Assembly (NCBI RefSeq): GCF_002999235.1
Contig: NZ_CP027236.1
Coordinates: 1,612,001 to 1,676,000, forward strand
Direction of reading: 5' to 3'
Length of the DNA: 64,000 nt
Source: Actinomyces sp. oral taxon 897
GTDB taxonomy: Bacteria; Actinomycetota; Actinomycetes; Actinomycetales; Actinomycetaceae
Positions 44,538 to 64,000 of the stretch are shown piece by piece. How positions within the stretch are numbered: the first letter of the stretch is position 1; each line of letters starts with the position of its first letter. A program made the translations under genes and the position numbers. The notes under the pieces were generated by a model, which was not told the DNA's origin, did no database searches, and worked only from the letters and a program-made list of their open reading frames with translations.

Positions 44538-44588
44538 AGTGGCATCCTTTCGTGTGGCGAGGTTGTTCCTCGAGTTATCTTTGGTCCG

Positions 44589-44618
44589 AGTCTGCCCCAG
44601 AATCCACCCACTTGTCAA
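44589..44618 (-). promoter_or_regulatory. Candidate promoter for the WXG100-size gene
   Basis: TTGACA (44613-44618) and CAGACT (44589-44594) with an 18-bp spacer on the minus strand, about 52 bp upstream of the start codon. The perfect -35 box suggests strong, separate expression of this gene. Confidence 0.6.
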
Positions 44619-44663
44619 TGGGGATCGCCTCATCGACGTCACAGGAGGTACTGGTAAGCAGGA

Positions 44664-45125: not shown

Positions 45126-45763
45126 CACACGAACCTCATGGTCTCGACGACAGAGTCACACAGACCGATAAGTGCCTCGGCCAGATCCTGGCTCTCCTTG
45201 TCATCACGCAAGGTGATCCTTCCCATGACCATGAACCAGTCATCTGGGTGAGAGGGGTCACCCACCAGGTACTGCAGTTCAGTCACCAGTACTTTGGCAC
45301 CTTCAGGTAGGGATGAAACTGCTATCTGGTACAGGTCAGCCGATTCCCGGATAGCCTTGCGAACGCCTTCAGTGGCCTCCTGGACCTCAGTAGTCCGCAG
45401 TACGACAAGCTCACCCGCTTCCAGAACCGTCGCGCCTGGATGCGAGGAGGCAACGGCAAGAAGCGTGTCCATAGGATCCGCTCCTTCCTGAGCCCGGAAG
45501 GGAAGGACTGCAAGAAAAGTGCCGGTGCGCACCTCGGCGACCGGGTCCGCTTCCAGGAGCACCAGTTCACAGGTGGCCTCCGCCAGGTTGCGGAACTGGG
45601 AAAGCAACTGCCCTTCCAATACCGCCCTTGCCTTAACAGCCTCATCAGTGGTGTGCCCGCCCGTCATTCTCTGCGCCAAGGCCCGCGCCTGGATCTGGAC
45701 GTCACCTTGAAGGTCCACGCTGGTCCAGAACTCAGGCAGAATGTACTCTAGCCTTACACTCAT
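45125..45763 (-). CDS. Hypothetical soluble protein in the T7SS-like locus
   Basis: 212 residues, soluble, starting MSVRLEYILPEFWTSVDLQG and ending KESQDLAEALIGLCDSVVET. I take ATG 45763 because AGGAG lies six bases upstream; the ATG at 45769 overlaps that site. Its plan (W near residue 13, central beta-rich part, final helix) parallels the downstream 153-residue protein. No family recognised. It lies 47 bp after the effector-type gene and is overlapped by the next. Confidence 0.7.
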   Translation of the reverse strand: MSVRLEYILPEFWTSVDLQGDVQIQARALAQRMTGGHTTDEAVKARAVLEGQLLSQFRNLAEATCELVLLEADPVAEVRTGTFLAVLPFRAQEGADPMDTLLAVASSHPGATVLEAGELVVLRTTEVQEATEGVRKAIRESADLYQIAVSSLPEGAKVLVTELQYLVGDPSHPDDWFMVMGRITLRDDKESQDLAEALIGLCDSVVETMRFV

Positions 45764-45810
45764 AGCCATCTCCTGTCTTCTCCACAGCCCAACTCGAGGC
45801 AGCTTGGTGG

Positions 45811-48901: not shown

Positions 48902-51900
48902 TCACTCCACGAGCGGGATCTGGACCTTCACGGCCTTGCCCGCACTCACCCAGTAGCCCCGTCCGGGGGGCATCTCGCCGCGGCGGACCTTGGGGATGTC
49001 GGTGCGCAGGAGCATCTCCCCGTCCATGGAGTCGGGCTGGAGGAGCAGGCCGGTGCGGGCGTTACGGACCTCCTGGAGCAGGGGCCAGGAGGAGTTCCAC
49101 TGGAAGGTCTCTCCCTCGGCCACCACCAGGTGGCCGTTGCGCTTGGCCTTCTTGACCGCGTCTATGAGCGGCATCTCCACCGGGGTCTGGAGGAACTCGG
49201 GGTAGCCCTCAATAAAGAGGGCCACCTGCGGATGCCCCTCAGGGGCCTCGACGGACAGGACCTCACTGGCGGCGGTCAGGGCGTCACGGATCCGCTCATC
49301 CCCCGTGACAGAGGTGTCCCACAGGCCCTCGACGCGGGCCAGGGACGAGCGGCGGCCGGAGATGTGGATACGTACCACGTCCGGATCCCAGGCCCTGAGG
49401 GTGGTGGCCAGCCAGCGCAGGGCGGTAACGCCACCGGACTCGGCCTGCCCGGCCACCAGGACCGCCCCCACCGGGGTGTAGCCCCACGGCCCCAGCGTGT
49501 CGGAGGACATTCCCAGGGTCGGCAGACCTGCCACGGTCTTGGGCAGCGCGGAGGTCGAGAGCTCGTCGGGCAGCTTACCCACCCCTGTCGGCCTGGTCCG
49601 TCCCCGGCGCTCCAGGTAGTGGCCAAAGGACTCCACCAGGCGCGACTGCGCCAGGACGTTGACATTGTCGCCCAGGATGGCCAGCTGGAGCTCCTCGTCC
49701 TTGCGGTCCACCTGCATGGCGCGCCCCGGCGGGCTCTTGGGGGACAGGACGTCCTTGGGCAGGTTGAAGTACATGTAGCCCTCCTCGTCCGTCTGGCGCA
49801 GGACCACCTTGCGCTGGAAGGTCCCTGCCATGGAGGTGGAGATCGCCTGGGGACGCTCGGCCCCGGCCGCCACGTGCACCCCCACGCCGCGCCCGTCCAC
49901 CAGGATCCGCTGGAACAGGTCCAGGACGGCCAGGCCGTCGGAGTTCTTCTCGTACTCGGTCCTGAACGACCCGATCCCGTCCACCAGGAGCAGGATGCGC
50001 GGCTCCTCCTGGTTGCCCGAGATACGCCGGTAGTCGGTGATGGTGGCGGCGCGGGCGGCGGCGTAGCGCTCGCTGCGGGTGTCAATGAGGTCGGTGAGGT
50101 AGCGCAGCAGGCGGGTGACGCGCTCGTCGTCGTCGGCCTCCACCACCGCCCCCACGTGCGGCAGGGACTCCAGCATGGCCAGGCCCCCGCCAGCGGCGTC
50201 CAGGGCGTAGACGTCCACCGGACCCGAGCGCGGGGTAATGGCCGCGGCGATCGCCAGGGAGCGCAGCGCCGTGGACTTCCCCGAGCCGGAGGCCCCGTAG
50301 AAGGCGATGTGCCCCTCGTCGTCGGGGCGGAAGTACTCCGGGTGCTGGTCCTGATGGTCGGGGTCGTCCACCACCCCCAGGAGCAGCTCGGTGTCGCGGC
50401 GCTGGGGCAGGCGGTTGAGGTCGTAGGTGGGGGCCAGCTCCTCCAGCCAGGGCTTGCGGGGCGAGGGGATCCGGGCCGACTCCGAGGCCGCCCTGATCGT
50501 GGCCACCACCCTGTCAATGTCCTGGGGCACGGACTCGGTGGAGACCTCCACGCGGGCCACCTGCCAGGGGCGAGGCATCCCGAAGGTCATCTCGTCCACC
50601 CCCACCGGGGCGGTGGACACCTCCGAGGTGGTGCGCGCCCCCGGGTAGGCGGACTGGAACTGGGTGATGCGCCCCGGTCCGGTCTTGGCGGCCGCGCGCC
50701 CGGGGATCTCGGGCGGGAAGTGGGCGGCGGTCTTCTCCCCCAGGACGTCCTGGGAGTCGGACTCGTCGGCCATGCGCAGGGCCACCCGCAGGTTGGTGTT
50801 GGCCCGCAGGTTGTCCTTAATGACGCCCGCCGGGCGCTGGGTGGCCAGGATGAGGTGCAGGCCCAGGGAGCGGCCCCGCTGGGCCACGTCCACGACGCCG
50901 TCGACGAACTCGGGGACCTCGGTGGCCAGGGCCGCGAACTCGTCGACCACGATCACCAGGCTGGGCGGGCAGTCGGGGTCACCCATCTTCTCCAGGGTGA
51001 CCAGGTCCTTGGCGCCCTTCTCGTTGAGCAGGTGCTCGCGGTGGCGCAGCTCGGCCCTCAGGCTGGTCAGGGCCCGGCGAACCAGGTAGGGCGACAGGTC
51101 CGTGACCAGGCCCACGCAGTGGGGCAGCTCGGTGCAGCGGGCGAACGCGCTGCCGCCCTTGTAGTCCACGAACAGGAAGGTCAGGCGGTCCGGGGACAGG
51201 GCCTGGGCCATGCCCAGCACCCAGGACTGGAGGAACTCGGACTTGCCCGCACCGGTGGTGCCGCCCACCAGGGCGTGGGGGCCGTGGGTGCGCAGGTCCA
51301 GGGCCAGGGGGGCCTCCGCCCCCTGGCCCACCAGGGAGCGCAGGCTCAGGGCCTGCTTGAGGGGAGCGGCCGGGCCGTCGTGGTCGATGACGGAGTGGTT
51401 GGCCCGCCACCGCCCCACCTGGGCGTCGGCGGAGTCGGCCAGCTCCTCGCCCGTGAGCCCCACGAAGGAGATGGAGCGCGGCAGGTCGGAGTCGTCGTCC
51501 ACGGGCACGCCCATGTCCACCACAGGGGCCAGGTGGCGTCCCAGGTGACGGACCTGGTCGTGGCTCAGGGACTCGGGGACCACGTCGGTGGCGGCCCGGG
51601 AGCGGCGCACGTAGCCCACGGTGCCGCCCACACCCTGGCCCGTGGGCGCGAGCTGGAGGAAGCTGCGGCAGGCGGCGGGCAGCTCGGTGACCTGCGGGGC
51701 GATCCAGATGGTGTGTACGCCCACGTCGGGGCCCTGCTCCACCACGCGGATGAGCCGGGCCCGGTCCACGGCGGGGTTGTCCACCACCACCACGACGGCA
51801 GGGACGTGGGCGTCGTCACCGCTGTCGTCGTCCTCCTCCTCGGTGGGGCCGCGGCGCGTCGGCTCGGTGGCGCCCCGCTGGGCGATGAGCTCCTCGAGGC

Positions 51901-53353
51901 GGGCCAGCAGGACCATGCCGGTGGCGCCGTCGGAGGCCAGGTGGAGGTCGCCCAGGGGCGAGTGGGGCGAGCAGGTGTGGGGCAGCCACTCCACCCAGTC
52001 CCAGCGCCCCCGCCCGGTGGTGTCGGTCAGGCACACCAGGGCCACCTCGGCGGGCGAGTGGAGGCTGACGAGCTGGGCGACCACGGCCCGGGTGGCCCCC
52101 TCCAGGTCGGGGGCCGCGCCGCACAGGCCCAGGGATCCGTCCTCCCGCAGGTTGACCACGATCGGCACCTGGTCAATGGTGGAGAACCGCTCCCGCAGCA
52201 CCATCAGGGCCTGACGGTGCTCCTTGACGGCGTCCTGGGCGTGCGGCTCCTCGATCTCGGTGCGGGGGGTGTCGGTCCCCAACCCCAGGCGCAGCTGGAG
52301 GAACTCGGGGTGCTCGGGGCGGCGGCACCACAGCGCCGGGCCCAGCCCCATGACGTCGGCGTAGACGTCGTTGACCGACGGGTACTGGGCGGTGCGTGCC
52401 TGGCGCTCCCGGGCGAAGACCCTCACCAGGTTGGCGCGCGCGTCCACCACCGCCTCAGCGAAGCGACGCCGGTCACGTTTCCACTCCTGCCTGCGCCGCA
52501 GCCGCTGCTCCGCCCAGGTGCCGATCATGAGCACCGGGGACAGGCCCACGAACACCAGGCTCATCACGTTGCGGCTGAACAGGTACATGCCCGCCCCCAT
52601 GACCAGGGGGGCCACCAGCGCCAGCAGGGGAAAACGCTGGGCCGGCTGGAAGCGCGGCGGGGTGGGCAGGGTGATCTTCTCGTGCGGGGTGCGGGGTATC
52701 ACCCGTGGTGAGCGCAGGTAGGGCACGTCGGTGCTGCCTGAGCCCGAGCGGGTCCCCGGGACGTTGCTGGCGGTGGTCAGCAGGCTGATCCGCAGGCTCG
52801 TCTCCCCTACCGTGACCACGTCCTGGGTGCTGACGGCCAGGCGTTGGACCCGCTGGTCGGCCACGGTGACGCCGTTGGCCGAGTTCAGGTCGTGGACCTC
52901 CACCTGGGTGCCCACGGTAATGCGCATGTGCCGCTTGGAGACCAGGGGGTCGTTGAGCACGACGCCGCAGTGCCGCGAGCGCCCCACCTCCGTGGAGCCC
53001 GGTGGCAGGGGGAAGGAGGTCCCGGCGTCGGGCCCGCTGAGGACCTGGACGACGGCGGCCTCCATGGCGCGCGCGTGCTCCTTGGGCACGGGGGCGAGGT
53101 CGACGACGTCGCCGCTGCCCAGCCCGGACTCGTCCAGGGGGGTCACGGGGGTCAGGACGGTGGGCGGGTGGGCGCCGTCGGGGTCCAGGACCCGCAGGGT
53201 CACCGTGCCGGGGTCCACCGGGTCACCGGCCTTGAGCGGGCCGGCACTGGCCAGGGCGGCGGCGACGTCGCCCACGGTGGCGGTGGCGTCGGCGGTCACC
53301 TGGAGGTTGGTGGCCTGGCCGGCGCGGCCGCGCACGCTCAGACGGATCTTCAT
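48902..53353 (-). CDS. Type VII-like secretion ATPase: YukD-FHA-FtsK/SpoIIIE (EccC/EssC-like)
   Basis: A 1483-residue motor. Order: a ubiquitin-like YukD-type domain (1 to about 90); an FHA domain (about 95-190, VGRSRHCGVVLNDPLVSKRH); two TM helices (about 240-282); then three FtsK/SpoIIIE ATPase modules. Module 1 has GGTTGAGKSE (about 697-706) and VIVVDEFAAL (about 796-805). Module 2 has GASGSGKST (about 1018-1026) and a Walker B LLLVDGIG near 1121. Module 3 keeps the fold, but its P-loop is degenerate (VAGQAESGGVT, about 1300). EccC and EssC drive export of WXG100 proteins. FHA at the front is EssC-like, and the YukD fusion is unusual. The start overlaps the upstream FHA gene as ATGA. Confidence 0.93.
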   Translation of the reverse strand: MKIRLSVRGRAGQATNLQVTADATATVGDVAAALASAGPLKAGDPVDPGTVTLRVLDPDGAHPPTVLTPVTPLDESGLGSGDVVDLAPVPKEHARAMEAAVVQVLSGPDAGTSFPLPPGSTEVGRSRHCGVVLNDPLVSKRHMRITVGTQVEVHDLNSANGVTVADQRVQRLAVSTQDVVTVGETSLRISLLTTASNVPGTRSGSGSTDVPYLRSPRVIPRTPHEKITLPTPPRFQPAQRFPLLALVAPLVMGAGMYLFSRNVMSLVFVGLSPVLMIGTWAEQRLRRRQEWKRDRRRFAEAVVDARANLVRVFARERQARTAQYPSVNDVYADVMGLGPALWCRRPEHPEFLQLRLGLGTDTPRTEIEEPHAQDAVKEHRQALMVLRERFSTIDQVPIVVNLREDGSLGLCGAAPDLEGATRAVVAQLVSLHSPAEVALVCLTDTTGRGRWDWVEWLPHTCSPHSPLGDLHLASDGATGMVLLARLEELIAQRGATEPTRRGPTEEEDDDSGDDAHVPAVVVVVDNPAVDRARLIRVVEQGPDVGVHTIWIAPQVTELPAACRSFLQLAPTGQGVGGTVGYVRRSRAATDVVPESLSHDQVRHLGRHLAPVVDMGVPVDDDSDLPRSISFVGLTGEELADSADAQVGRWRANHSVIDHDGPAAPLKQALSLRSLVGQGAEAPLALDLRTHGPHALVGGTTGAGKSEFLQSWVLGMAQALSPDRLTFLFVDYKGGSAFARCTELPHCVGLVTDLSPYLVRRALTSLRAELRHREHLLNEKGAKDLVTLEKMGDPDCPPSLVIVVDEFAALATEVPEFVDGVVDVAQRGRSLGLHLILATQRPAGVIKDNLRANTNLRVALRMADESDSQDVLGEKTAAHFPPEIPGRAAAKTGPGRITQFQSAYPGARTTSEVSTAPVGVDEMTFGMPRPWQVARVEVSTESVPQDIDRVVATIRAASESARIPSPRKPWLEELAPTYDLNRLPQRRDTELLLGVVDDPDHQDQHPEYFRPDDEGHIAFYGASGSGKSTALRSLAIAAAITPRSGPVDVYALDAAGGGLAMLESLPHVGAVVEADDDERVTRLLRYLTDLIDTRSERYAAARAATITDYRRISGNQEEPRILLLVDGIGSFRTEYEKNSDGLAVLDLFQRILVDGRGVGVHVAAGAERPQAISTSMAGTFQRKVVLRQTDEEGYMYFNLPKDVLSPKSPPGRAMQVDRKDEELQLAILGDNVNVLAQSRLVESFGHYLERRGRTRPTGVGKLPDELSTSALPKTVAGLPTLGMSSDTLGPWGYTPVGAVLVAGQAESGGVTALRWLATTLRAWDPDVVRIHISGRRSSLARVEGLWDTSVTGDERIRDALTAASEVLSVEAPEGHPQVALFIEGYPEFLQTPVEMPLIDAVKKAKRNGHLVVAEGETFQWNSSWPLLQEVRNARTGLLLQPDSMDGEMLLRTDIPKVRRGEMPPGRGYWVSAGKAVKVQIPLVE

Positions 53354-54165
53354 GCGGTCTCTCCTGTGCTCTGCGGGCGTGCGGGGGCTGCGGGGCGGGG
53401 CCCGGGTGGAGTGGGGCGGGGCCCGGGTGGGGCGGTAGGTGAGGTGGGCGGGGTGGGGTCGCCAGCGGCGTGGTCCAGCAGCGGCAGGTCCCTGACCGTG
53501 ACCAGGCGCGCCGCCAGGGCGTACTCCACCAAGGCGTTACGGCGGTAGGAGGCGTGGGAGCGCGGCCCGCCCCGCATCCCCTTGACCCCCAGCCGGTCCA
53601 GCTTGTCGCAGACGTTGTCCAGCTTGCGGTTGAAGCGGGTCATGGACCAGCCCAGGCGGGCGGCGGCGTCGGCGTTGCGGGGCAGGTCCACCGGCCCGGT
53701 CCCGGTGCGCCGCAGCCAGGGCTCGGCCAGGGACAGGATGAGCAGGTGCTGGCTGGGGGTGAGGCTGACCTGCCCCACCGTGGTCTCCCCCTGGGAGGGG
53801 CCCGGCTCAGGGGGGTTGACCTCGTACAGGGGGCCGGGGACCTCCAGGAGGATCTCGTAGGTGGTCGCGCCCGCGGTGAAGACCAGCGCCATGCGGGGGA
53901 AGACCAGGGGGACCCGGGCGCCGGGGGCCACCCAGGAGCGTGAGCTTCCCTCCGCCTCGGCCACGGTGGTCCCCAGGCGGCTGCCGACGTTGACCACCCA
54001 CCACAGCCCGGTCTGCCACTGCAGGATGAGGAAGCGTCGGTGGAGGAAGGGGTTGTCGTCCAGGGCGAGGTCCCCCTCCCGCCCGATGGTGAAGGCCTGG
54101 TCGCGGGGGATCCGGTGGATCTCCCCGGCGAAGTCGAGGACCAGCGCCTCGTCCTGCCCGCTCAT
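53350..54165 (-). CDS. FHA-domain protein with C-terminal helix-turn-helix-like region
   Basis: 271 residues. Residues about 20-115 form an FHA-like domain (FTIGREGDLALDDNPFLHRR, then VGSRLGTTV), which reads phosphothreonine. Residues about 150-215 (LTPSQHLLILSLAEPWLRRT, AAARLGWSMTRFNRKLDNVC) look like a helix-turn-helix, followed by a Pro-rich tail. This could be an FHA-linked transcription regulator or an adaptor. The ATG overlaps the kinase stop as ATGA, and its own stop overlaps the ATPase start. Confidence 0.8.
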   Translation of the reverse strand: MSGQDEALVLDFAGEIHRIPRDQAFTIGREGDLALDDNPFLHRRFLILQWQTGLWWVVNVGSRLGTTVAEAEGSSRSWVAPGARVPLVFPRMALVFTAGATTYEILLEVPGPLYEVNPPEPGPSQGETTVGQVSLTPSQHLLILSLAEPWLRRTGTGPVDLPRNADAAARLGWSMTRFNRKLDNVCDKLDRLGVKGMRGGPRSHASYRRNALVEYALAARLVTVRDLPLLDHAAGDPTPPTSPTAPPGPRPTPPGPRPAAPARPQSTGETA

Positions 54166-55802
54166 GGCGTGGGCACGCAGGTGGTCACCGGGGCCGAGGT
54201 GGTCCCGTCCTGGGAGCGGGCCACGACCTCCACGCAGGTGCGCCCGGGCAGGGGGTTGACCGTGGCCGTCAGCTCGGTGGTCTCCTGGACCGGCTGGGGG
54301 GAGGCCGGGTCGTTGACGCGGTACAGGAAGGTCACCCCCTGCGTGTCCCCCTCCCACATCCAGGTCAGGCGGACGACGCCGTCCCTGAGCACCGCCGTGA
54401 GGTCGGTGACGGCGGGGCCGTTGGGGACCCCCGGGGGCGGCTTGAGCTTGGAGGTGGCCGAGGGCCGGGCGGTGGAGGTGGCGTAGGTGGTCGGCTCCTG
54501 GCGCACCAGCGCCCGGTAGGCCAGGAGGCCGACGCCCGCGACCAGGAACACGGCCAGGAGGCTGACCAGGACCGTCCGGGGCCGGGGGCGTCGGTCGGCG
54601 TGGTCCTGGCCGTCGCCACCGGCGTGCTGTGGGCCGTCAGGGGCCTGGGCGCCGGAGCCGTCCTGAAGGGGCTCCTGGTGGTGCCGCACGGCGTCCGCCT
54701 CATCGGGCGACGAGGGCGGGAGGGCACCAGGTGGCGGGCCGCCGGGCGGCAGGGGGGTATCCGGCCTCCCCGGGCGCGGGGCGCGGGGCACCGAGCGGGT
54801 GTCGTCGCTGCCGGTGGGGCCGGGCCGGGTACCAGCGGAGCCCGGCCGGGTGCCGGTGGGGTCGATCGAGGTGACCGGTCGCAGGACGGTGGCGTCCGCG
54901 CCGTCGGGCCCGGGGGCGGGGGCCAGCTCCTCCTCCATGACGTCCAGGGCCGTGACGCCCAGGTGCAGGTCGGTCTGGATCTGCTGGAGGGCGCGGGCGA
55001 AGGCGTAGGCGGTGGGGTAGCGCCCGGAGGGACGCACAGCCATGGCCGTGCGCAGGACGCGCTCAAGCTGGTCGGGCACGTCGGGGCGCCCGATCGGCGG
55101 TATCTGACCGGCCAGGGCCCGCCGGTACAGGGCCATCCGGCTGTCGTCACGGCCGGTGGCGTCCGCGTGGGGGGAGCGCCCCGACAGGAGGGTGTAGACC
55201 GTCGCCGCCAGGGAGTACACGTCCGCGGCGGGGGTCAGGGCCTCCTCGTCGGTCTGCTGCTCGGGCGACGCCCAGGGCGGGGAGGCGCCGCCGAACTCGT
55301 CGCCGACGACCTGGTCCTTGATCGGGGTGGCGATCCCGAAGTCGGTGAGCACCGGGTGCTTGAAGGAGGTCAGCAGAATGTTGGCGGGCTTAATGTCCCG
55401 GTGCAGGTAGCCGGCCCGGTGGATGGTCTCCACGGCACCGGCCACCTGGATCCCCACCTCCAGGGCCTGGGCCACGCTCAGGGGGTGGGCGGCCGCACGC
55501 CTGCCCAGGTGGGGCGGCGGGCAGTACTCCATCATGAGGTAGTTGCGGCCGCCCTCCACGGTCCCGGCCCCGTAGACGGACAGGATCGAGGGGTGGGAGG
55601 ACATGCGGGCCATGAGGTTGGCCTCGGCCTCGAAGTGGGCGCGCTGGGCGGGCGTCGTCCCCTGGCGGATCACCTTGACGGCGACGTCGCGGCGCGGGAC
55701 GGCCTGCTCGTAGAGGAAGACGTCGGCGAACCCTCCTGCCCCCAGGAACCCCTTGGGGGTGGCTCCGGGGATGGCTGGGGCCTGGGGCTGTGCGGTACTC
55801 AC
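54162..55802 (-). CDS. PknB-type Ser/Thr protein kinase, membrane-anchored
   Basis: 546 residues. The kinase domain is at residues about 15-275 with the Gly loop LGAGGFADV, Lys43 in VAVKVI, HRDIKPAN (134-141) and DFG (154-156). An Ala/Pro-rich juxtamembrane stretch follows, then a TM near 410-432 and an outer domain of about 110 residues with a fibronectin-III-like look (VRLTWMWEGDTQGVTFLYRV) and two Cys. No PASTA repeats. It sits between a PP2C phosphatase and FHA readers, so its substrates probably include the neighbouring FHA partners or the ATPase. GTG start overlapping the upstream stop as GTGA. Confidence 0.93.
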   Translation of the reverse strand: MSTAQPQAPAIPGATPKGFLGAGGFADVFLYEQAVPRRDVAVKVIRQGTTPAQRAHFEAEANLMARMSSHPSILSVYGAGTVEGGRNYLMMEYCPPPHLGRRAAAHPLSVAQALEVGIQVAGAVETIHRAGYLHRDIKPANILLTSFKHPVLTDFGIATPIKDQVVGDEFGGASPPWASPEQQTDEEALTPAADVYSLAATVYTLLSGRSPHADATGRDDSRMALYRRALAGQIPPIGRPDVPDQLERVLRTAMAVRPSGRYPTAYAFARALQQIQTDLHLGVTALDVMEEELAPAPGPDGADATVLRPVTSIDPTGTRPGSAGTRPGPTGSDDTRSVPRAPRPGRPDTPLPPGGPPPGALPPSSPDEADAVRHHQEPLQDGSGAQAPDGPQHAGGDGQDHADRRPRPRTVLVSLLAVFLVAGVGLLAYRALVRQEPTTYATSTARPSATSKLKPPPGVPNGPAVTDLTAVLRDGVVRLTWMWEGDTQGVTFLYRVNDPASPQPVQETTELTATVNPLPGRTCVEVVARSQDGTTSAPVTTCVPTP

Positions 55803-58207
55803 CGTGCCTCCTCAATCGTCAGGGTGACGTTCTCACCGAGGTCAATGACGTCGCCTGTGCGCAAAAACGTGCTGCCGTGCTCGGGGACGCGATGGGGGGC
55901 CTCGCCGGGGCGCAGCAGGACCGTGCCATTGCGTGAGCGCAGGTCCTCCACGGTCAGGTCCCAGCCCTCCACGCGGATGGCGCAGTGGGACTTGGAGATA
56001 CCCAGGTCGGGGCTGGCCACGGCAATGAGGTGGGGGGTGGGGCCCCCGGAGCGGGTGGTGACCTGGGGCCTGCGCCCGACGACGACGTCGGCGTCCAGCA
56101 CCGCGGTGGCGCCGGTGGACGCGCGCAGCAGCCCCAGGGGCGGACGCCGGACCATGCCGGTGGCCGAGGTCACCTCGGCGCCGCACTGCCGGCACCTGCT
56201 GGCGTGCACGGGGTTGGGGTGGTTGGCGGGGCAGAAGGCGGCCAGGACCATGGGCGCGGATCCGTCCGGCACCGTCCCCGGGGGCAGGGGGAGGCCCGTC
56301 CCCAGGGCCTGGTGCTCCGCACGCAGCTGGGCCGAGGAGACCGTGCACCCGTCATGCCGCCAGTCACCCCCCGCAGCCGGGACCCCGCCGGGCGAGTCCG
56401 GGAGCCCACCGGGAGGCCCACCAGGGAGACCACCGGGCGGGTCCGGGACCTGGCCAGGGAGTTCGCCCGGGGCCCCACCGGGCAGGCCGCCTGGGATCCC
56501 ACCGGGCAGGCCGGTCCCGCCCGCCGGGCCCGGCAGGGCAGCGGCGTCGCCTCCCTGGGGGAGGGCGGCCTGGTGCTCCGCACGCAGCTGGGCCGAGGAG
56601 ACCGTGCGCCCGTCATGCCGCCACTCATCCCCCGCGGCCGGGACCCCACCAGGGAGCCCGGCGGGCGGGTCCGGGACCTGGCCCGTGCCCTGGCTCGTAC
56701 CCGGCGCCTGGGGGTCGCCCTGGGGCTGGTGGCGTGCGCTGACCGCATCCAGGGGGCTGACGTCGTCGCAGTGGACCTGGCGGATGGCGGCGTCCTCGAC
56801 CCGGTGCGGGGTCAGGGACGTGGCATCGAAGAGGTGGCCGAAGTAGTCCTCCTCGACCTGCTCCACGCTGGCCGGTCCGGGGTCCTGGGGCGGCCGGGCC
56901 GGAGCCGGAGGTGCGGCCGGGACCGGAGGTGCGGCCGGGATTGGGGCCGGGGGCGCGGGCAGGGGTGCGGACGGGACCGGGACTGGGAGCGCGGCCGGGA
57001 CTGGGGGTGCGGACTGGGCCGGGTCCGGGGCGGGGGACGGCGCCCCGGAGCCGGGCTGGTCCCCCGGCCCCTCGAGGCCGGCCCTGGACATCCCAGGCGT
57101 CCCAGGGACACCAGAAACCTCAGGAGCTCCAGGAGTATGAGGCACCTCAGGAGCTTCAGGCATTTCAGGCGTCCCAGGAGCACCGGGCACTTCAGAAGTT
57201 TCAAGAACTCCGGGAATATTAGGTGTCATAAGAACCTCAGGTGCCTCGGGAACCTCAGGAGTCCCAGGCGCCTCAGGAGTATCGAGGCTGCTGACCTGGT
57301 CCTCAGGGCCGGGGACCGCGGTCTCCTGGGCACCCTGCGCCCACCGGGGCCCGGCGTAGGGGTCCACGTCCTCCGGCCGCAGGGTCGCCCCGGCGTCGCC
57401 AGCGGGCGCGGGCTCCAGGGACGCCGGCTCCGCAGGCACAGGCGCCGGGACGGGGGCCGCCGACCAGGTCGCGGGGACGCGCCCCGCCGGCTCCGCGGGC
57501 ACAGGGTCCAGGGGCGCGCCTCCCGGGGAGGGGGGCGCTGGCACGCCCGCCACAGCAGGCCCACCCAGCACGGCAGGCTCAGCCACCACCGCGGGCCCGC
57601 CCACCACGGCCGACTCGGCGGCCACGACCGGCCCGGCCACCACCGCGGGCGCCGCGACAGGCGCCGGACCAGGCGCCCCGGGGCCAGGCGCCGGGTCGGG
57701 CACCGGGGTGACCGGGTCAGGCACCGGTTCACCGGCCCCCCGGTCCGCGGGCCCCGGGCCGGTACCCGGCTCCTGCCAGGTCAGGGTACTGGCCTCTACC
57801 AGGCCCGAGCGCAGCGGCAGGCCCGGCGTCGTCCCGACGTCGGCGGGCTCCAGGACCACGGTGAGGTCCCGGACGCCGGTGAAGCAGGCCTCGTCCCAGA
57901 CCACCACCCTGGGGGCGCTGAAGACCTGCTCGCCGCCGTCGGCCACGACCCGGACCTGGAAGGCCCCGCGCCCCACGACCCGGACGGCGTCCTCCTCCAC
58001 GGACACGGCCAGGAAGTCGGGTAGGGTGAAGACGTCGTTGCCGTGGGCGCGCACCAGGACCTGGAGGACCTCCTCCAGCCCCTGCCCGGCCTCCGTCTCC
58101 TGCCACATGCTCTCCAGGAGCCCCAGGTCCTCACGCAGCGCGACCAGGCCGCGCGGGGACACTGCCAGGGGCACGCTTCCCGGGATCCACCTCGGTGTCG
58201 TCCTCAT
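55799..58207 (-). CDS. Long FHA-domain protein with zinc ribbon
   Basis: 802 residues. An N-terminal domain of about 150 residues (WIPGSVPLAVSPRGLVALRE) is followed by a very long Pro/Ala/Gly/Glu-rich linker. Then come a zinc-ribbon-like CPANHPNPVHASRCRQCGAE near residues 660-680 and a C-terminal FHA domain (VVVGRRPQVTTRSGGPTPHL, ISKSHCAI, DLRSRNGTVLL). The linker includes an internal duplication of the phrase WRHDGRTVSSAQLRAEHQA. Probably a phospho-dependent scaffold for the secretion machine (inference). It overlaps both neighbours by four bases. Confidence 0.85.
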   Translation of the reverse strand: MRTTPRWIPGSVPLAVSPRGLVALREDLGLLESMWQETEAGQGLEEVLQVLVRAHGNDVFTLPDFLAVSVEEDAVRVVGRGAFQVRVVADGGEQVFSAPRVVVWDEACFTGVRDLTVVLEPADVGTTPGLPLRSGLVEASTLTWQEPGTGPGPADRGAGEPVPDPVTPVPDPAPGPGAPGPAPVAAPAVVAGPVVAAESAVVGGPAVVAEPAVLGGPAVAGVPAPPSPGGAPLDPVPAEPAGRVPATWSAAPVPAPVPAEPASLEPAPAGDAGATLRPEDVDPYAGPRWAQGAQETAVPGPEDQVSSLDTPEAPGTPEVPEAPEVLMTPNIPGVLETSEVPGAPGTPEMPEAPEVPHTPGAPEVSGVPGTPGMSRAGLEGPGDQPGSGAPSPAPDPAQSAPPVPAALPVPVPSAPLPAPPAPIPAAPPVPAAPPAPARPPQDPGPASVEQVEEDYFGHLFDATSLTPHRVEDAAIRQVHCDDVSPLDAVSARHQPQGDPQAPGTSQGTGQVPDPPAGLPGGVPAAGDEWRHDGRTVSSAQLRAEHQAALPQGGDAAALPGPAGGTGLPGGIPGGLPGGAPGELPGQVPDPPGGLPGGPPGGLPDSPGGVPAAGGDWRHDGCTVSSAQLRAEHQALGTGLPLPPGTVPDGSAPMVLAAFCPANHPNPVHASRCRQCGAEVTSATGMVRRPPLGLLRASTGATAVLDADVVVGRRPQVTTRSGGPTPHLIAVASPDLGISKSHCAIRVEGWDLTVEDLRSRNGTVLLRPGEAPHRVPEHGSTFLRTGDVIDLGENVTLTIEEAR

Positions 58208-59142
58208 GGCTCCTCCGTCTCCTGGTGCTGGTGGCCGTGGCTGCGCGGTGGCGCGAGGTGCGCCGGGTGCCCCGCACTCCTGGTGGGCAGCCGAGGGATG
58301 GTGTCGTCGCTCACACTGGGGGCCGTGGACTCGTCTACGTCACCCGCCTCCCACGGAGGCAGGGCCTGGACGACGTCGACCACCACCACCGTGACGTTGT
58401 CGTGACCGCCTGAGGCCAGGGCGTGGCCCACGAGCTCGCGGGCCGCCTGGCCGGGGTCGGCCACGCCCCGGGCCACCGCCTCGATCCGGGTGGCGGCGAC
58501 CTCGTTGCTCAGCCCGTCGGAGCAGATGACGAACCGGTCGCCCGCACGGGCCGGCAGGAGGAACTGGTCGGCGTAGACCTGTGCGCCGCCACCGGCCCCC
58601 AGGGCCCGGGTGATGACGTTGCGGCGCCCCGAGGTACGCGCCTGCTCCGGGGTCAGGCGTCCGGCGTCGACCAGCTCCTGGACCTCGGAGTGGTCGTGGG
58701 TGACCTGGCAGAAGGAGCTCTCGGAGACGTGGTAGGTGCGCGAGTCCCCGACATTGACCACCCGCAGGCAGGGCCTGCCGCTCTGGGAGGACAGGACGAC
58801 GCCGGTCAGGGTGGTCCCCGGTGCGAACCCGGCCCGCTCCAGGCCGGCCACGCTCACCGCGGCACGGTCAATGCGGTGGGCCAGCGCCCGCGCTCCCACG
58901 AGGTCCTGCCCGACCAGGTCCCGGAAGGCGTCCAGGGCCAGGGCGGAGGCCACGTCGCCCGCCTCGTGGCCCCCCATGCCGTCGGCCACCAGGAAGACCG
59001 GGGAGCGTGCCAGGTAGGAGTCCTCGTTGTGCCTGCGCACCAGCCCGGTGTCACTGGCCGCGCCCGAGCGCACGCGCAGGACGGGCCCCGCGGGGCCGGG
59101 CGGCTGGGGCGGGGCGACGGGCGGGGACGCGGACACGCTCAC
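58204..59142 (-). CDS. PP2C-type Ser/Thr protein phosphatase
   Basis: 312 residues. PPM-family metal and phosphate motifs are all present: RHNEDSYL, VADGMGGHEAGDVAS, VNVGDSRTYH, CSDGLSNEV and SGGHDNVTVVVVDV. It reverses phosphorylation by the kinase encoded three genes on. It ends with a His/Pro-rich soluble tail (HGHQHQETEEP) and has no TM, unlike PstP. Start GTG 59142 overlaps the upstream stop as GTGA. Confidence 0.93.
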   Translation of the reverse strand: MSVSASPPVAPPQPPGPAGPVLRVRSGAASDTGLVRRHNEDSYLARSPVFLVADGMGGHEAGDVASALALDAFRDLVGQDLVGARALAHRIDRAAVSVAGLERAGFAPGTTLTGVVLSSQSGRPCLRVVNVGDSRTYHVSESSFCQVTHDHSEVQELVDAGRLTPEQARTSGRRNVITRALGAGGGAQVYADQFLLPARAGDRFVICSDGLSNEVAATRIEAVARGVADPGQAARELVGHALASGGHDNVTVVVVDVVQALPPWEAGDVDESTAPSVSDDTIPRLPTRSAGHPAHLAPPRSHGHQHQETEEP

Positions 59143-60518
59143 CAGGCCTCCACCCTCAGGCTGCGGTCCCCGAAGCGCACGGTGGAGCCCGCCGGGGCCT
59201 CGAGGACGTCCCCGGGCACCGCTACCGTGGCCGACCCGCCCGGGGAGACCACGACGGTGCCGTTGGTGGAGCCCAGGTCGTGCACCAGCACCCGGGATCC
59301 CTCCAGGCGCAGGGCCACGTGGGTCTTGGAGACGGAGTAGTCGGGGACGGGCACCAGGACGGCGCCGGTCCACGGGGGCACGGCCACGGGGTCACGCCCC
59401 AGCAGGACGGTGCCGCCCAGCATCACCTGCTGCCCGGTGTCCAGGAGGAGACGGGCGGCGCCGGACCCGCGCGCCACGGTGCGGTCCGCCTCCTCCGACG
59501 ACGGCGCGGGCCCGGGGCCGGCGACCTGGGCCGCACGCACCTGCAAAGGGACCACGACCGGGTCGCTGGCGCTGGTTCCGCGCTGGATGGGGACGGGGGC
59601 CAGCGGCGAGGAGGGCGGCTGGGCCGGGGCGGGCGGGACGGGGCCCACTGGAGCGGGCGGGACCGAGCCCGACGACGCCGAGGGCTGGGACGGCGTGACC
59701 GGCGGGGCAGGCGGGAGCGCCGGGGCAGGCGGGGCGGGCGTCGCCTCGGGGCCCTGGCCGCCAGCTCCCTGCTCCCAGGGCACGGCGGTAATAAAACCGG
59801 ATGAGGCCGCAGGCGCCGAGGAGGCTGCGGGGGGCGGGGGGACCGGAGGACGACACCCGGCCAGGTCGAGGCCGCCGACGACGGTGTTCTCCAGGCTCTC
59901 CTCCCCGGCGGGGGCCGGGGACGACGCCCAGGCGCCCAGGGCCGCCTCGTGCCCCTGGGACGCGCTGGCCTGCGGAACCACCCCGGTGGCCCGCACCGAC
60001 CCGGTTCCCGGGACGGCGTCCCGCCGCCTGGCCCCTTCCGGCCAGGCACCGGCCCTGACGTCAATAATGTAGATCCCGGCGCACCGCTCGTACCAGGACC
60101 GCCTGAGGGGGTCCAGGGTGCCGAAGAAGACGACGAGCGGCACCAGGCCGAAGCTCGCCAGCCCGGTCAGTGCCCCCAGCAGGGTCCAGGCCAGCACCCT
60201 GGGGAGCACCTGCCCGGGCCGGTCCCAGCGCACGTAGGCGACCCCGAGCAGCCGCATTCCCGGGGTCTGGCCGGAGATGCGCACCGGCCAGAAGAATATG
60301 GCGAAGACAGCCAGGAGGTATACCGCTATCACCATGTAGACAGGGAACTCCGAGTACCCGCTGAGGAGGGCGGAGAACACGATCGCCAGCATGATCGCCG
60401 AGACAATGTGCAACAGCACATAGTCCACGAACCAGGCCGCCCAGCGTCGGCCTATGCCCGCGGGCACGGTCTGACGCAGGTGGGCGGGCAGCACCCCGGG
60501 GGCGGTGGTAGGGCTCAT
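59139..60518 (-). CDS. RDD membrane domain-FHA fusion protein
   Basis: 459 residues. The N-terminal RDD domain has three to four TM helices (WFVDYVLLHIVSAIMLAIVF, VYMVIAVYLLAVFAIFFWPV, GLASFGLVPLVVFFG). A Pro/Ala-rich cytoplasmic linker of about 190 residues leads to a C-terminal FHA domain (VLLGRDPVAVPPWTGAVLVP, VSKTHVALRLEG, DLGSTNGTVV). It would hold an FHA reader at the membrane. ATGA overlap with the transglutaminase-like gene, GTGA with the phosphatase gene. Confidence 0.9.
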   Translation of the reverse strand: MSPTTAPGVLPAHLRQTVPAGIGRRWAAWFVDYVLLHIVSAIMLAIVFSALLSGYSEFPVYMVIAVYLLAVFAIFFWPVRISGQTPGMRLLGVAYVRWDRPGQVLPRVLAWTLLGALTGLASFGLVPLVVFFGTLDPLRRSWYERCAGIYIIDVRAGAWPEGARRRDAVPGTGSVRATGVVPQASASQGHEAALGAWASSPAPAGEESLENTVVGGLDLAGCRPPVPPPPAASSAPAASSGFITAVPWEQGAGGQGPEATPAPPAPALPPAPPVTPSQPSASSGSVPPAPVGPVPPAPAQPPSSPLAPVPIQRGTSASDPVVVPLQVRAAQVAGPGPAPSSEEADRTVARGSGAARLLLDTGQQVMLGGTVLLGRDPVAVPPWTGAVLVPVPDYSVSKTHVALRLEGSRVLVHDLGSTNGTVVVSPGGSATVAVPGDVLEAPAGSTVRFGDRSLRVEAW

Positions 60519-63034
60519 GACCGGCCTCGATTCGAGTGGGGGCGCCGCAGGCGGACGCGGGGACGGGAGGGGGTGGGACGGCGGGTGCGCCCGGCGGCCC
60601 GGCGCTCGGCACGGCGTCGGGTGCGCCGCTCACGGCGGCCGTCCCGCAGGGAGCGCAGGGCGACCACCGCCAGGACGCGCCGACGGCGTCGGGTCGCCGC
60701 ACGCAGCCGGGCCAGGACGGCGTCGGCGTCCTCCCAGACCTGCTCGGAGCGGATGTGAGAGGCGTCGGCGCCACCGAAGACCGACCCGTCCACGGACACC
60801 GCCAGGGCACCCACACTACCCGGGGCGGGCTGGGGACGGAACACGCTCCCGGGTACCTGCGCCCGCCCGTCGGTGAGCGCCTGGAGGAAGCGGGCCTGCT
60901 CCGGGCGGGTGGCGCTGCGCGGCACCCCGGTACCCAGGTCGGTGGCGCGGTCAATGAGCTCGTCCCAGCCGCCGCCGACCTGGTCCAGGCCGGTGCCCCC
61001 GGTGCGGCGCCGGTGGCGGCGGCGCGCCTTGAGCCCGACCACCACCAGGAAGGGCGAGCTGACCACGAGCAGGCCGCCGGTCAGGCGGGCCGCCAGGAGG
61101 AGCCAGTACCTCCAGGCGGAGGCGTCGTCGGTGTCCCGGTCGTGGTCGTCGGTAATGTCGGGGGGTAGCTCGGCGGGCTCCTGCGGGGGCACCGGGGGCT
61201 GGAGGACCTGGGGGCGCGGGTTGGGCTTGGGCCTGGGGACCTCGGTCTGCGGGGTCCGGTCGCGCGGCGGGGTGGGGTCGAAGGGGACCCAGCCGGCGCC
61301 GTCGAAGCTGACCTCGACCCAGACGTGGGCGTCGGTGCCCAGGATCCTCTGCTCGCCCTCGGAGTAGGTCTGCGGGTAGAAGCCCATGACCACCCGGGAG
61401 GGGTAGCCGGCCTGGCGCACCATGAGGGCCATGGCGACGGCGTACTGCTCGTCGTCCCCGATCATGGCCGCGTTGACGTCCAGCAGGCTCTCCAGGCGGG
61501 CGGTGGAGTGGCTGGGCAGGCTCAGTCCGTCCGACCCGTTGGAGAAGTAGCCCTGGGTGGAGAAGAACTGCTGCATGGCACGCACCCGGGAGACGGGGGT
61601 GTCGGCCTCCCCCACCGCCTCGGACAGGCGCTCGCCCACGCCGTCGGGCACGTTGGTGAGCTCGGGCTGGACCAGGGTGCTCCCGGCGCGCCCGGTCAGC
61701 TGCTGGTCGCTCCACACCGGTGGGGTGACGAGAGTCACGGTATAGCTGTCCCCGCTGCTCAGGCCCCGGGTGGTCAGGGCCGAGCCCAGGGACGAGGAGT
61801 AGTACAGCCCGTCCATAATGGCCGCGGAGTCGGCGCTGGTGACGTCAATGGTGCGCAGCTCCCCGCCGCCGGGCATCCAGTAGCCGGAGTAGTCCTTGAT
61901 GGTGATGCCCAGGGTGGAGGTCGTGGCGTCCTCGGGCAGGGCGTCGTCGGTCACGGTGGTCCCGGTGCGGTAGAAGCTGTCGGAGCCCTGCCCGGTGCCC
62001 ACCCGCATGACGACGCCGTCGTAGGCGTCCAGGGTGGCCAGGCGGATCCGCTCCCCCTCCTTCAGGCCGGTGACAGTGAACAGGGTGGCGTCCTTCTGGT
62101 TGTCCACCCAGTAGTGGAAGCTCGTCAGGGGCGAGGCGTACTCCTCCAGGTCCAGGGGCGGGCGGACGTGGTCACGCAGGACGTCGCGGTGCTCCCCGCC
62201 CTGGAGGACGGGGGCGGTCAGGGCGGACGCCACCAGGGCGACAGCGACCATGGCGAGCGACCCGGCCACCGTGAGCCAGCGCCTGCCCTGGCCCGTGGGG
62301 CTGCCCACAATGCCCCGGCCGGCCTCCCGCCGGCGCCGGTGGGCCAGCCAGGAGGTCCACAGCAGGCCCGTGGCCAGGACGGTCCCGGCTGCGGGCAGGG
62401 CCAGGGGGGCGTTCTGGGAGCCCCACAGCACGCCGACCAGCCCCAGGGCCGCCACCGGTACCAGCGCCCAGGCCTGGCGGCGGGTGGTGCGCAGCGCGGT
62501 GGTGACCGCGGTGACCGACGCCAGCAGCCCGGCCAGGTAGGGCACGATGGCGGGGCCTACGAACGCCCCTGCGGGCGGGCTCAGGGTGAGCAGGTCCTTC
62601 CAGGCCTCCACGGCCCCGGTGACCAGCCCCTGGAGGGTGGCGAGGGTGGGGACCAGGCGTGAGGTGGTCGTGGCGGGCAGGGCCAGGGCGCCGCCCGCCA
62701 GGAGGTAGGTCAGGGTGGTGGCCAGGAGCGTCTCCAGCAGGCTCCACCGCCACCGGGCCCCGGCCAGGCCAATGAGGCTGCCCAGGGCAATGCCCCCGGC
62801 CACCGCCGTATAACCGCTGGTGTCCCCGAATACGGCGCCGTGGGTGGCCCCGGCGGCTCCCAGGAGGAGGACGACGGCGCCCAGGCTCACCCAGTCCACG
62901 CCCCGGGCGGGCGCCTGATCGGCCTCACCGGTGCTCTGAGCCCGGGGCCCGTCGGTGGCCCCGGTCTGCCCGGTCACGGGCTCAGGAGTATCAGTGCTCT
63001 GCCCGGTCACGGGCTCAGGGGTGTCAGCGCTCAC
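60515..63034 (-). CDS. Transglutaminase-like membrane protein (TgpA type), catalytic Cys replaced
   Basis: 839 residues. About seven TM helices in the first 290 residues lead to an outer region with a transglutaminase-core fold, a further TM near 650 and a basic Arg-rich cytoplasmic end. In the core the usual GxCEQ reads GDDEQYAVAMALMVRQAG (about residue 527), so the nucleophile Cys is Asp, while the His (DAHVWVEV, about 570) and Asp (FDPTP, about 586) are kept. The codons are clean (GGG GAC GAC GAG). It is therefore probably a non-catalytic binding module. GTGA overlap with the DUF58 gene. Confidence 0.9.
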   Translation of the reverse strand: MSADTPEPVTGQSTDTPEPVTGQTGATDGPRAQSTGEADQAPARGVDWVSLGAVVLLLGAAGATHGAVFGDTSGYTAVAGGIALGSLIGLAGARWRWSLLETLLATTLTYLLAGGALALPATTTSRLVPTLATLQGLVTGAVEAWKDLLTLSPPAGAFVGPAIVPYLAGLLASVTAVTTALRTTRRQAWALVPVAALGLVGVLWGSQNAPLALPAAGTVLATGLLWTSWLAHRRRREAGRGIVGSPTGQGRRWLTVAGSLAMVAVALVASALTAPVLQGGEHRDVLRDHVRPPLDLEEYASPLTSFHYWVDNQKDATLFTVTGLKEGERIRLATLDAYDGVVMRVGTGQGSDSFYRTGTTVTDDALPEDATTSTLGITIKDYSGYWMPGGGELRTIDVTSADSAAIMDGLYYSSSLGSALTTRGLSSGDSYTVTLVTPPVWSDQQLTGRAGSTLVQPELTNVPDGVGERLSEAVGEADTPVSRVRAMQQFFSTQGYFSNGSDGLSLPSHSTARLESLLDVNAAMIGDDEQYAVAMALMVRQAGYPSRVVMGFYPQTYSEGEQRILGTDAHVWVEVSFDGAGWVPFDPTPPRDRTPQTEVPRPKPNPRPQVLQPPVPPQEPAELPPDITDDHDRDTDDASAWRYWLLLAARLTGGLLVVSSPFLVVVGLKARRRHRRRTGGTGLDQVGGGWDELIDRATDLGTGVPRSATRPEQARFLQALTDGRAQVPGSVFRPQPAPGSVGALAVSVDGSVFGGADASHIRSEQVWEDADAVLARLRAATRRRRRVLAVVALRSLRDGRRERRTRRRAERRAAGRTRRPTPSRPRVRLRRPHSNRGRS

Positions 63035-64000
63035 GAGTCGACCTTTCTCATGGCCCGGCCCAGCAGGTCGAGCTCGGGCAGGGTCAGGACGGGCAGCCCG
63101 GCCAGGCGCTGGGAGCGCAGGGCGGCGTCGCCGTCCACGCGCAGGGCGATAGACCGGGTGCTCAGGGGGAGCTCGACGTGGGCGCGGTGGATGCTGGCAA
63201 TGGGGACCAGGGAGCCGGTGACCAGGACGGTGACCGAGGCGTCGGGGACGGCTGCGGCGGCGCAGCGGGTGACCTCCATGAGGTCACCGCGGTCGGCCAG
63301 GCGCTCAATGGTGGTCAGCAGGTCCAGGACCCGGGTGGAGGTGGGCAGCAGCGGGACGCCCGCCTGGGTGACCAGGCTCAGCTCACGGTGCTCGCGCAGG
63401 GCGGTCAGGGCCAGGGAGGCGGTGACGCTCACGGCCGTCTCAAAGTCCTCGTCACTGGCCCAGGAGGCCGGGTCCAGGTCCAGGACGAGCAGGAGGTGGG
63501 CGCGGCGGGTCTCCTCGAACTGGCGGACCATGAGGCGTCCAACGCGGGCGGTGGTGCGCCAGTGCACATTGCGCCGGTCGTCCCCGGGCACGTAGTCGCG
63601 CAGGGCGTGGAAGGACACGTCCGAGCTGGACAGGTCCTGGGTGACCGCGCCCTCAATGTCACGGATGAACCCCAGGGCGGTGGTGTCCAGGGCGGTGGTG
63701 CGCGGGTGGATGTAGAGGTCCAGGGGGTCGGTCCAGCGCTGGGTGCGCCGCACAAGCCCCAGGGCGTCCCCGCGCACGGAGGTGACCGGGCCCACGGTGA
63801 CCAGGCCGCGGCGTCGGGTGGGGACGGTGAAGACCTCCTCGTGCGTCTGCCCCGCGCCCAGGCGGGGCACCCGGAAGACGGCCAGGCCCCGGCCCACGGG
63901 CATCTCAATGGTGCTAGAGCCCACGGCCCGGCCCGCGGCGCCACGCAGGACCACGTTGCCCAGGGCGGGCTTCCCCACGGTCACGCGGGTGGAGGCCAGG
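63031..64000 (-). CDS. DUF58 domain protein (5' end beyond window)
   Basis: 323 residues of the C-terminal part. The DUF58 signature is DYVPGDDRRNVHWRTTARVG, followed by a vWA-like fold (HLLLVLDLDPASW, TASLALTALREHR). DUF58 proteins usually follow a MoxR AAA+ ATPase and precede a transglutaminase-like protein, so a moxR-type gene is expected just beyond 64000. The frame is open to the edge; its N-terminus with the usual two TM helices is not seen. It is the first visible gene of the 8-gene overlapping operon. Confidence 0.9.
   Translation of the reverse strand, partial: LASTRVTVGKPALGNVVLRGAAGRAVGSSTIEMPVGRGLAVFRVPRLGAGQTHEEVFTVPTRRRGLVTVGPVTSVRGDALGLVRRTQRWTDPLDLYIHPRTTALDTTALGFIRDIEGAVTQDLSSSDVSFHALRDYVPGDDRRNVHWRTTARVGRLMVRQFEETRRAHLLLVLDLDPASWASDEDFETAVSVTASLALTALREHRELSLVTQAGVPLLPTSTRVLDLLTTIERLADRGDLMEVTRCAAAAVPDASVTVLVTGSLVPIASIHRAHVELPLSTRSIALRVDGDAALRSQRLAGLPVLTLPELDLLGRAMRKVDS

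Follow-up and report, generated by a model that had tools for sequence, protein, structure and literature searches.

Within the genome of Actinomyces sp. oral taxon 897, the minus strand of a 64,000-nucleotide stretch (positions 1,612,001 to 1,676,000 of contig NZ_CP027236.1; hereafter the window) carries an operon in which genes for a Ser/Thr kinase, a phosphatase and FHA-domain proteins are followed by that of an FtsK-type ATPase. What kind of system might such a combination specify? A preliminary description took it for a compact variant of the type VII secretion system (T7SS) gated by Thr phosphorylation. Based upon the sequence analyses presented here, we consider it probable (roughly 0.7) that the locus encodes a T7SS of a subtype outside classes T7SSa to T7SSj, as these are set out in the available text of Garrett, Higginson and Palmer (2024; PMC11217815). 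By the criteria given in that text, a separate subtype is indicated because the motor forms a distinct clade and is accompanied by its own partner set. We read the subtype as unclassified in the literature searched, and as joining two bodies of work, one on T7SSd and one on the bifidobacterial PFNA operon; a search of open-licence PMC literature (bioRxiv excluded) returned no paper joining this motor with MoxR, DUF58 or transglutaminase.

Layout of the operon

All seven junctions between the eight genes in the window are 4-nt ATGA or GTGA overlaps, as first described. Past position 64000, where moxR had been proposed as a gene to look for, lie the remainder of the DUF58 gene, a MoxR gene 9 nt before it, and a gene for a 2041-aa Ig/Fn3 protein that ends in a 4-nt ATGA overlap with the start of MoxR. 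The operon thus has ten genes, listed here from upstream to downstream:

L005:2592-8717, upstream beyond the window: Ig/Fn3 protein, 2041 aa (Pfam, 11 Big_9 plus fn3 stretches)
L005:1597-2595, upstream beyond the window: MoxR (Pfam AAA_3)
63031..64000, minus strand: DUF58 protein, C-terminal part (Pfam DUF58, E 7e-16; full gene 518 aa, L005:31-1587)
60515..63034, minus strand: Tgm, TgpA-like membrane protein with a transglutaminase-like domain (Pfam TgpA_N 2e-11, Transglut_core 6.6e-17; hydrophobic segments)
59139..60518, minus strand: RDD-FHA, membrane protein with a predicted phosphothreonine (pThr)-competent FHA domain (Pfam RDD 2.4e-10, FHA 9e-7)
58204..59142, minus strand: PP2C/PPM Ser/Thr phosphatase (Pfam PP2C above cut-off; NCBIfam Stp1_PP2C 182.6 bits, cut-off 230)
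55799..58207, minus strand: FHA-Zn, Pro-rich protein with conserved, zinc-ribbon-like Cys and a C-terminal FHA domain (Pfam FHA 8.6e-8; residues conserved)
54162..55802, minus strand: membrane Ser/Thr kinase with one transmembrane (TM) segment (410-428) and an extracytoplasmic tail (Pfam Pkinase 9.6e-33; hydrophobic segment)
53350..54165, minus strand: FHA-HTH, degenerate FHA domain plus HTH-like C-terminus (FHA 15.3 bits, Pfam cut-off 20.7)
48902..53353, minus strand: putative T7SS motor ATPase, 1483 aa (YukD-like 1-90, FHA 98-191, two hydrophobic segments within 241-281, NTPase domains)

Pfam matches confirm the DUF58 and transglutaminase-like pair, the single kinase and the single PP2C of the preliminary description. 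Its three separate FHA proteins hold for RDD-FHA and FHA-Zn; FHA-HTH falls under the Pfam cut-off and lacks the pThr-binding residues, and its HTH label, taken over from that description, has no Pfam match at the C-terminus. The zinc ribbon proposed for FHA-Zn is reflected in conserved Cys residues (59/71 rows), with no Pfam zinc family matched. For PP2C and FHA-HTH the program-made open reading frames probably begin too far upstream; the starts indicated by the overlaps are 59142 and 54165. The Ig/Fn3 giant displays, in a hydropathy scan, a single hydrophobic segment near its N-terminus (41-59) and none at its C-terminus. Domain scans of the operon proteins bear out the statement that no ecc or ess membrane gene is present: EccB and EccD, features of T7SSa, are both missing from the operon. 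No EsaA or EssA domain was found among the scanned locus proteins (no genome-wide search was made), and EssB/YukC (PF10140) had no match in the genome while the B. subtilis control matched.

In the operons of relatives, 4-nt overlaps occupy 144/235 junctions, compared with 83/359 for the remaining same-strand gene pairs of those loci, 32/116 in other loci of the same genome and 6/47 in window positions 1-44000, all counted on rough gene calls from a purpose-made gene finder; a chance origin of the overlaps was rejected on this enrichment. GC content is 0.73-0.78 across 50-64 kb and falls to 0.59-0.62 across 44-48 kb. Two genes for very large TPR-repeat proteins (L005:8862-12050 and L005:12130-14982) immediately precede the Ig/Fn3 gene on its strand.

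The motor, its relatives and its downstream cassette

The motor displays the multi-NTPase architecture of EccC/EssC-family FtsK/SpoIIIE motors that is general to T7SSs: two NTPase domains retain an intact Walker A motif, a third lacks the Lys, Pfam matches are of the YscD-type/FHA and FtsK_SpoIIIE families, and PDB matches include YukB (9qks, E 7e-65) and EccC5 (E 7e-49). Phylogenetic comparison with EccC and EssC, proposed in the preliminary description, places it in a fully supported clade apart from both. Specifically, in a tree of 45 rows a branch with support 100 sets off the window-type motors, next to which stand more distant actinobacterial motors, while 11 T7SSd-type rows fall on one side of a starred branch and the EccC- and EssC-type rows stand apart; in a second tree of 44 rows, from which a long-branched motor of the same genome (X_own_3212k) was left out, 22 window-type rows group together with support 100. 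The T7SSd rows are of the Bifidobacterium/Alloscardovia type and relatives, rather than the Olsenella sequence named in PMC11217815. An approximately unbiased (AU) test (p 5.9e-5) adds little, since its constraint grouped the window row alone with the T7SSd rows, a placement already ruled out by the clade to which the window row belongs.

Residues 1-90 of the motor are, by profile, a YukD-like domain, followed by an FHA domain at 98-191, much as had been claimed. An AlphaFold model of residues 1-200 (36 rows, mean pLDDT 91.9) predicts a strand-strand-helix-strand-strand domain at 1-88, the YukD-like order, and an FHA domain at 100-191; in fold searches with this model, FHA structures filled both match lists, leaving no room for YukD rows. 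When residues 1-92 were aligned by hhalign with a set of YukD sequences (16 actinobacterial domains of seven genomes and one EsaB, whose protein search gave only 7 near-identical matches), the score was 28.6 (E 5e-5), compared with a maximum of 16.2 over 100 column permutations and scores of 7.7-13.2 for seven other families.

The operon is a real unit, as judged from its conservation over many genera. Among 198 genomes drawn from the order, 55 (this one included) contain a motor match above 890 bits, a threshold of our choosing, and neighbourhoods of the other 54 were covered to about 12 kb upstream and 3 kb downstream of the motor. Loci with at least 9.5 kb upstream were treated as informative (49/54; G511, G524, G449, G482 and G517 were too short, although in G511 an RDD/FHA-PP2C-FHA-kinase-FHA-ATPase run reaches the contig end). 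Seven core genes were scored, namely DUF58, Tgm, RDD-FHA, PP2C, FHA-Zn, kinase and FHA-HTH; at least six are present in 25 informative loci, which represent seven family codes, 10 belonging to one genus code (g252) and 6 to another (g2), and a PFNA-like part alone is present in 8. The relative order FN3-MoxR-DUF58-Tgm-RDD/FHA-PP2C-FHA-STPK-FHA-ATPase is shared by 23 of the 25 fuller loci, from six family codes, with G530 and G453 differing. RDD-FHA and Tgm are about equally kept, being labelled in 34/49 (one label, in G522, weak) and 32/49, respectively. Genes were called with a simple codon-bias finder and labelled by BLAST and HMMs built from window proteins and their best matches, an approach favouring close relatives.

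A second sample consisted of named loci, the best 80 of 586 relatives listed in a contig scan with an alignment (a scan with a single protein gave none), with more relatives beyond; 16 had less than 9.5 kb upstream. The 64 usable loci comprise 35 with the exact order Tgm-RDD/FHA-PP2C-FHA-kinase-FHA-ATPase, 12 near-full, 8 PFNA-like, 3 with RDD-FHA only and 6 with none, and the exact-order genera include Actinomyces, Arthrobacter, Cellulosimicrobium, Nocardioides, Microbacterium, Brachybacterium and Tessaracoccus (Arthrobacter ipis was counted in both samples, as G008 and L085). Nine RDD-FHA-labelled genes were scanned, picked where the module is partial or nearly missing: all nine matched RDD and eight matched FHA, seven of them over cut-off. 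In several Microbacteriaceae (L098, L120, L125, L132) two large genes, of about 1085-1164 and 1282-1298 aa, precede the motor in the place of the module.

A WXG100 gene beside the motor, another general T7SS feature, belongs to a second cassette at 44244-48740 on the same strand, which starts 161 nt after the motor gene:

47196..48740, minus strand: 514-aa protein with a DUF6317/WXG-like N-terminus (Pfam DUF6317, E 0.0015, under cut-off)
45811..47196, minus strand: 461-aa candidate substrate with a T7SS_signal domain (Pfam, 3.8e-12) and a hydrophobic segment at 228-246
45125..45769, minus strand: 214-aa protein with a predicted Mog1/PsbP-type fold, candidate substrate chaperone
44664..45128, minus strand: 154-aa protein with distant similarity to the gene found after 214-aa homologues elsewhere (hhalign E 3.5e-4, 42 columns, probability 37)
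44244..44537, minus strand: WXG100 protein (Pfam WXG100, E 2e-16)

A WXG-type gene is among the next three genes after the motor in 56/70 named loci. Homologues of the 514-aa protein measure about 100 aa in most relatives (47 neighbourhood matches, some duplicated), and the hydrophobic segment of the 461-aa protein is kept in 51/51 distinct homologues. In its predicted fold, and in being encoded beside a candidate substrate that carries a hydrophobic segment, the 214-aa protein resembles the T6SS Eag chaperone SciW; the likeness is one of fold only, and a PDB sequence search with the 214-aa family gave no match.

Phosphorylation, described systems and competing explanations

Residue conservation was counted over 71 rows, comprising the window protein and the first 70 matches (near-identical rows included) from sets of 80-138 proteins per component. 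The conserved residues of FHA domains bind pThr. In the motor FHA the G-R pair is present in 70/71 rows, S and H in 71/71, N in 70/71 and G in 71/71; the corresponding counts for RDD-FHA are 71/71, 71/71, 70/71 and 71/71, and FHA-Zn is as well conserved as both. The kinase retains HRD and DFG in 71/71 rows and PP2C its Asp motifs in 70-71 of 71. FHA-HTH carries a different conserved motif, L-H-R instead of S-x-x-H, and no N-G, and was on these grounds rejected as a pThr reader.

Taken together, these data permit a proposal for how the system might operate. We are most confident that the motor would export WXG100-type proteins and the 461-aa protein and, next, that the membrane kinase would phosphorylate Thr on its partners, whether on its own tail, on the Pro-rich linkers of the FHA proteins or on the RDD protein. 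Thr phosphorylation would then cause RDD-FHA, FHA-Zn and the motor FHA to assemble around the motor, with PP2C reversing the process, and the fused YukD-like copy would pre-assemble its contact. With less confidence, MoxR-DUF58 and the TgpA-like protein may prepare an exit path through a wall spanned by the Ig/Fn3 giant; with least, the Mog1-fold 214-aa protein may shield the hydrophobic segment of its neighbouring substrate. Secretion, phospho-gating and envelope path are all inferred. In its widest form the proposal is of a widespread actinobacterial T7SS subtype switched by Thr phosphorylation, in which kinase and PP2C determine whether RDD-FHA, FHA-Zn and motor FHA lock into one membrane complex, the "missing" ubiquitin-like part of T7SSd-like systems is fused to the motor, and PFNA supplies the envelope-and-sensing half of a secretion system of this kind; we put this forward tentatively, rating it below even odds. 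If true, protein export in operon-bearing actinobacteria may be switched by phosphorylation. Phospho-control of T7 assembly is raised as a possibility in the available text of PMC11217815, and the operon, whose single transcript would carry writer, eraser and readers together, provides a direct test bed for it.

How does this locus relate to T7SSd? The two are alike in host phylum (Actinomycetota), in an EssC-type motor with an N-terminal FHA region, and in a WXG100 protein, a membrane kinase and an Ig-like giant, with kinase TsdD and WXG100 TsdA both having counterparts by domain in the window locus. They also share a YukD-like domain at the motor N-terminus, the two N-terminal domains matching each other at 97% by hhalign. 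The T7SSd-type N-terminus matches the YukD set as well (probability 96, E 2.5e-9), which suggests that the ubiquitin-like component, stated in the available text of PMC11217815 to be absent from T7SSd, is fused to the motor, a specific answer to its apparent lack of a YukD protein. Despite these similarities, the window motor is not in the TsdC clade, the two forming separate supported clades; the window adds MoxR, DUF58, Tgm, RDD-FHA, PP2C and two more FHA proteins; and TsdI carries a signal peptide and a C-terminal TM segment, whereas the window giant has its only hydrophobic segment at the N-terminus. In a T7SSd-type locus from our sample (G468), consisting of WXG100, STPK, an Ig giant with C-terminal TM and an ATPase 62% identical over residues 1-1000 to the motor of Bifidobacterium sp. 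LC6, no MoxR, DUF58, Tgm, RDD or PP2C label occurs within the 35 kb covered. The idea that the locus is nothing but the T7SSd already named, surrounded by additional genes, is consequently unlikely, and membership in that class was set aside on the G468 gene set and the separate motor clades.

Three further systems invite comparison. The bifidobacterial PFNA operon, consisting of pkb2, fn3, aaa-atp, duf58 and tgm, and in some species prpC, a hypothetical gene and fha, shares with the window the fn3-aaa-atp-duf58-tgm order and a kinase, in a different position; as described in the portions of PMC8430577 and PMC6803598 consulted it lacks a secretion motor and WXG100, a comparison made by domain and order rather than by sequence. 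The words "FtsK" and "secretion" have 0 occurrences in the main texts of both papers, as do "PFNA", "DUF58", "MoxR" and "transglutaminase" in PMC11217815. A relative from another class (G208) has kinase-Fn3-MoxR-DUF58-Tgm and then the motor, the PFNA order with a motor added. PFNA, known for work on host cytokine binding, should on this suggestion be re-examined as secretion-linked. As portrayed in the available text of PMC11217815, T7SSe resembles the window in combining a kinase, a PPM phosphatase, a separate FHA protein and an FHA-bearing motor, but is restricted to Bacillota, has a separate TseB, and has DUF6382-FHA where the window has RDD-FHA. Lastly, EssC of T7SSb (EssC/YukBA) is the best NCBIfam match of the motor and the membrane kinase resembles the pseudokinase EssB/YukC in topology; in contrast to T7SSb, the window kinase has intact motifs, the genome has no EssB, and the motor has a fused YukD-like domain and one FHA domain with pThr-binding residues.

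Several observations weigh against the reading of one phospho-gated secretion system. The NCBIfam scores of the motor are all under cut-off (EssC 550.7 bits, cut-off 778; EccCa 368, cut-off 509; EccCb 302), and the YukD assignment has a probability of just 67.5 by hhalign, with Pfam YukD matching 2/36 relatives (best E 0.12) and not the window protein. In 16/49 informative loci (including G539 and G578) the 12 kb upstream of the motor lack DUF58 and Tgm, and 14 of these have at most one core gene; G428 and G525 still have kinase, PP2C and FHA genes. Across 131 distinct rows the motor FHA residues are intact in 119, gapped in 4 and changed in 8, though several of the last two kinds (such as L166, L181, L061 and L146) look like miscalled starts; intact rows include 77 with a kinase in the covered stretch and 33 without, so an intact motor FHA does not depend on a local kinase. 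The mycobacterial L115 and L119 and the Rhodococcus L126 motors have lost the FHA Arg and Ser (no kinase is labelled in the L115 and L126 stretches), and those of G420 and G475 have His instead of Asn. Finally, a second Fn3-MoxR-DUF58-Tgm-kinase module with PP2C and FHA genes flanks a T7SSa-type EccB/EccD/subtilase/EccC-type locus of the same genome (L006:8-8336, L007:11415-14173, at the chromosome contig start), so the module is not tied to this motor. Given its absence upstream in 16/49 loci, its recurrence beside a T7SSa-type locus, and the persistence of an intact motor FHA where no kinase is nearby, the module may serve as an exchangeable regulator and not form part of the channel.

Such observations lend themselves to an explanation in which one transcript carries two units, a secretion motor for WXG100 proteins and a separate envelope-sensing module (MoxR-DUF58-Tgm-Fn3 plus kinase, phosphatase and FHA proteins) that stands outside the machine and regulates only expression or wall remodelling. 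The loci without DUF58/Tgm, the module-like genes beside the T7SSa-type locus, the 33 rows with intact FHA and no nearby kinase, and the bifidobacterial PFNA operon, described without a secretion gene in the text of PMC8430577 consulted, all agree with it; yet the motor itself bears an FHA with pThr-binding residues in 119/131 distinct rows, RDD-FHA is retained in 6/16 loci without the module, and the same relative order recurs in 23 loci of six family codes. We regard the two-unit explanation as a credible if somewhat doubtful one. With respect to the original claim of a compact T7SS variant, what stands is a conserved operon joining a T7SS-type YukD-FHA-EssC-like motor to kinase, PP2C and FHA proteins. 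The suggestion that DUF58, transglutaminase-like and RDD proteins are its membrane parts is weakened for the first two, as the motor occurs without them upstream in 16/49 loci, and their module looks accessory; RDD-FHA, by virtue of its retention in 6/16, fares better.

Other secretion loci of the genome

The preliminary description named canonical ESX genes elsewhere, if the true partner set, as grounds for abandoning its reading. Such genes are indeed present in this genome, at C1:8.7-23.6 kb, where EccB, two EccD-type genes, a mycosin-like subtilase and two WXG100 genes (G000:C1:8.7-19.4 kb) lie with an EccC-type motor of their own; a further EccD-type gene lies beside another motor at C1:2.23 Mb. 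The window ATPase might in principle be an auxiliary motor using the EccB, EccD and subtilase of that locus, and sharing of EccB/EccD may occur in this one genome, a point that also counts against a self-contained system. The canonical locus has its own motor, however, and in 33 further genomes, 25 carrying the operon and 8 its PFNA-like form, EccB had no match in 32 and EccD none above cut-off in 31 (two matched above it, and there was one weaker match besides); the window's own genome served as positive control for both, and 14 control genomes gave no EccB match. The auxiliary-motor explanation is accordingly very improbable. With EccB in 1/33 and EccD over cut-off in 2/33, the operon does not in general depend upon either, and the canonical locus was rejected as a general partner set. 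Annotation based upon ecc and ess genes would miss these systems, since 32/33 of the sampled genomes have no EccB match and, among the relatives listed whose source names the motor, the name is FtsK/SpoIIIE-, S-DNA-T-, FHA-domain or "cell division"-like rather than T7SS.

FtsK_SpoIIIE matches in frames of 1420-1729 aa identify six EccC/EssC-like motor genes in this genome, the window's included, at G000:C1 20.9, 332.7, 1662.8, 2235.5, 2725.8 and 3212.0 kb, each in a different neighbourhood and besides other FtsK-type proteins; the long-branched one at 3212 kb is unsure.

A T7SSd-type locus (L184:7020-19827 and L185:758-2934) comprises WXG100, kinase, a 1775-aa Ig giant with C-terminal TM and motor; after these come a gene of the 214-aa family and one for a T7SS_signal protein, a pair also present in the window. 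On visual inspection the FHA of this motor seems degenerate, in contrast to TsdC as described in the available text of PMC11217815, which also describes adjacency of Tad and T7SS genes only for Bacillota T7SSg and T7SSh. In the present genome a Tad pilus locus leads, across an intervening 872-aa gene, into a 1543-aa T7SS-type motor (L024:3919-17263; G000:C1:321.9-335.3 kb); the Tad genes comprise a SAF-domain gene, T2SSE, two T2SSF, a Flp-like gene (below cut-off), two TadE and one with a Tad domain.

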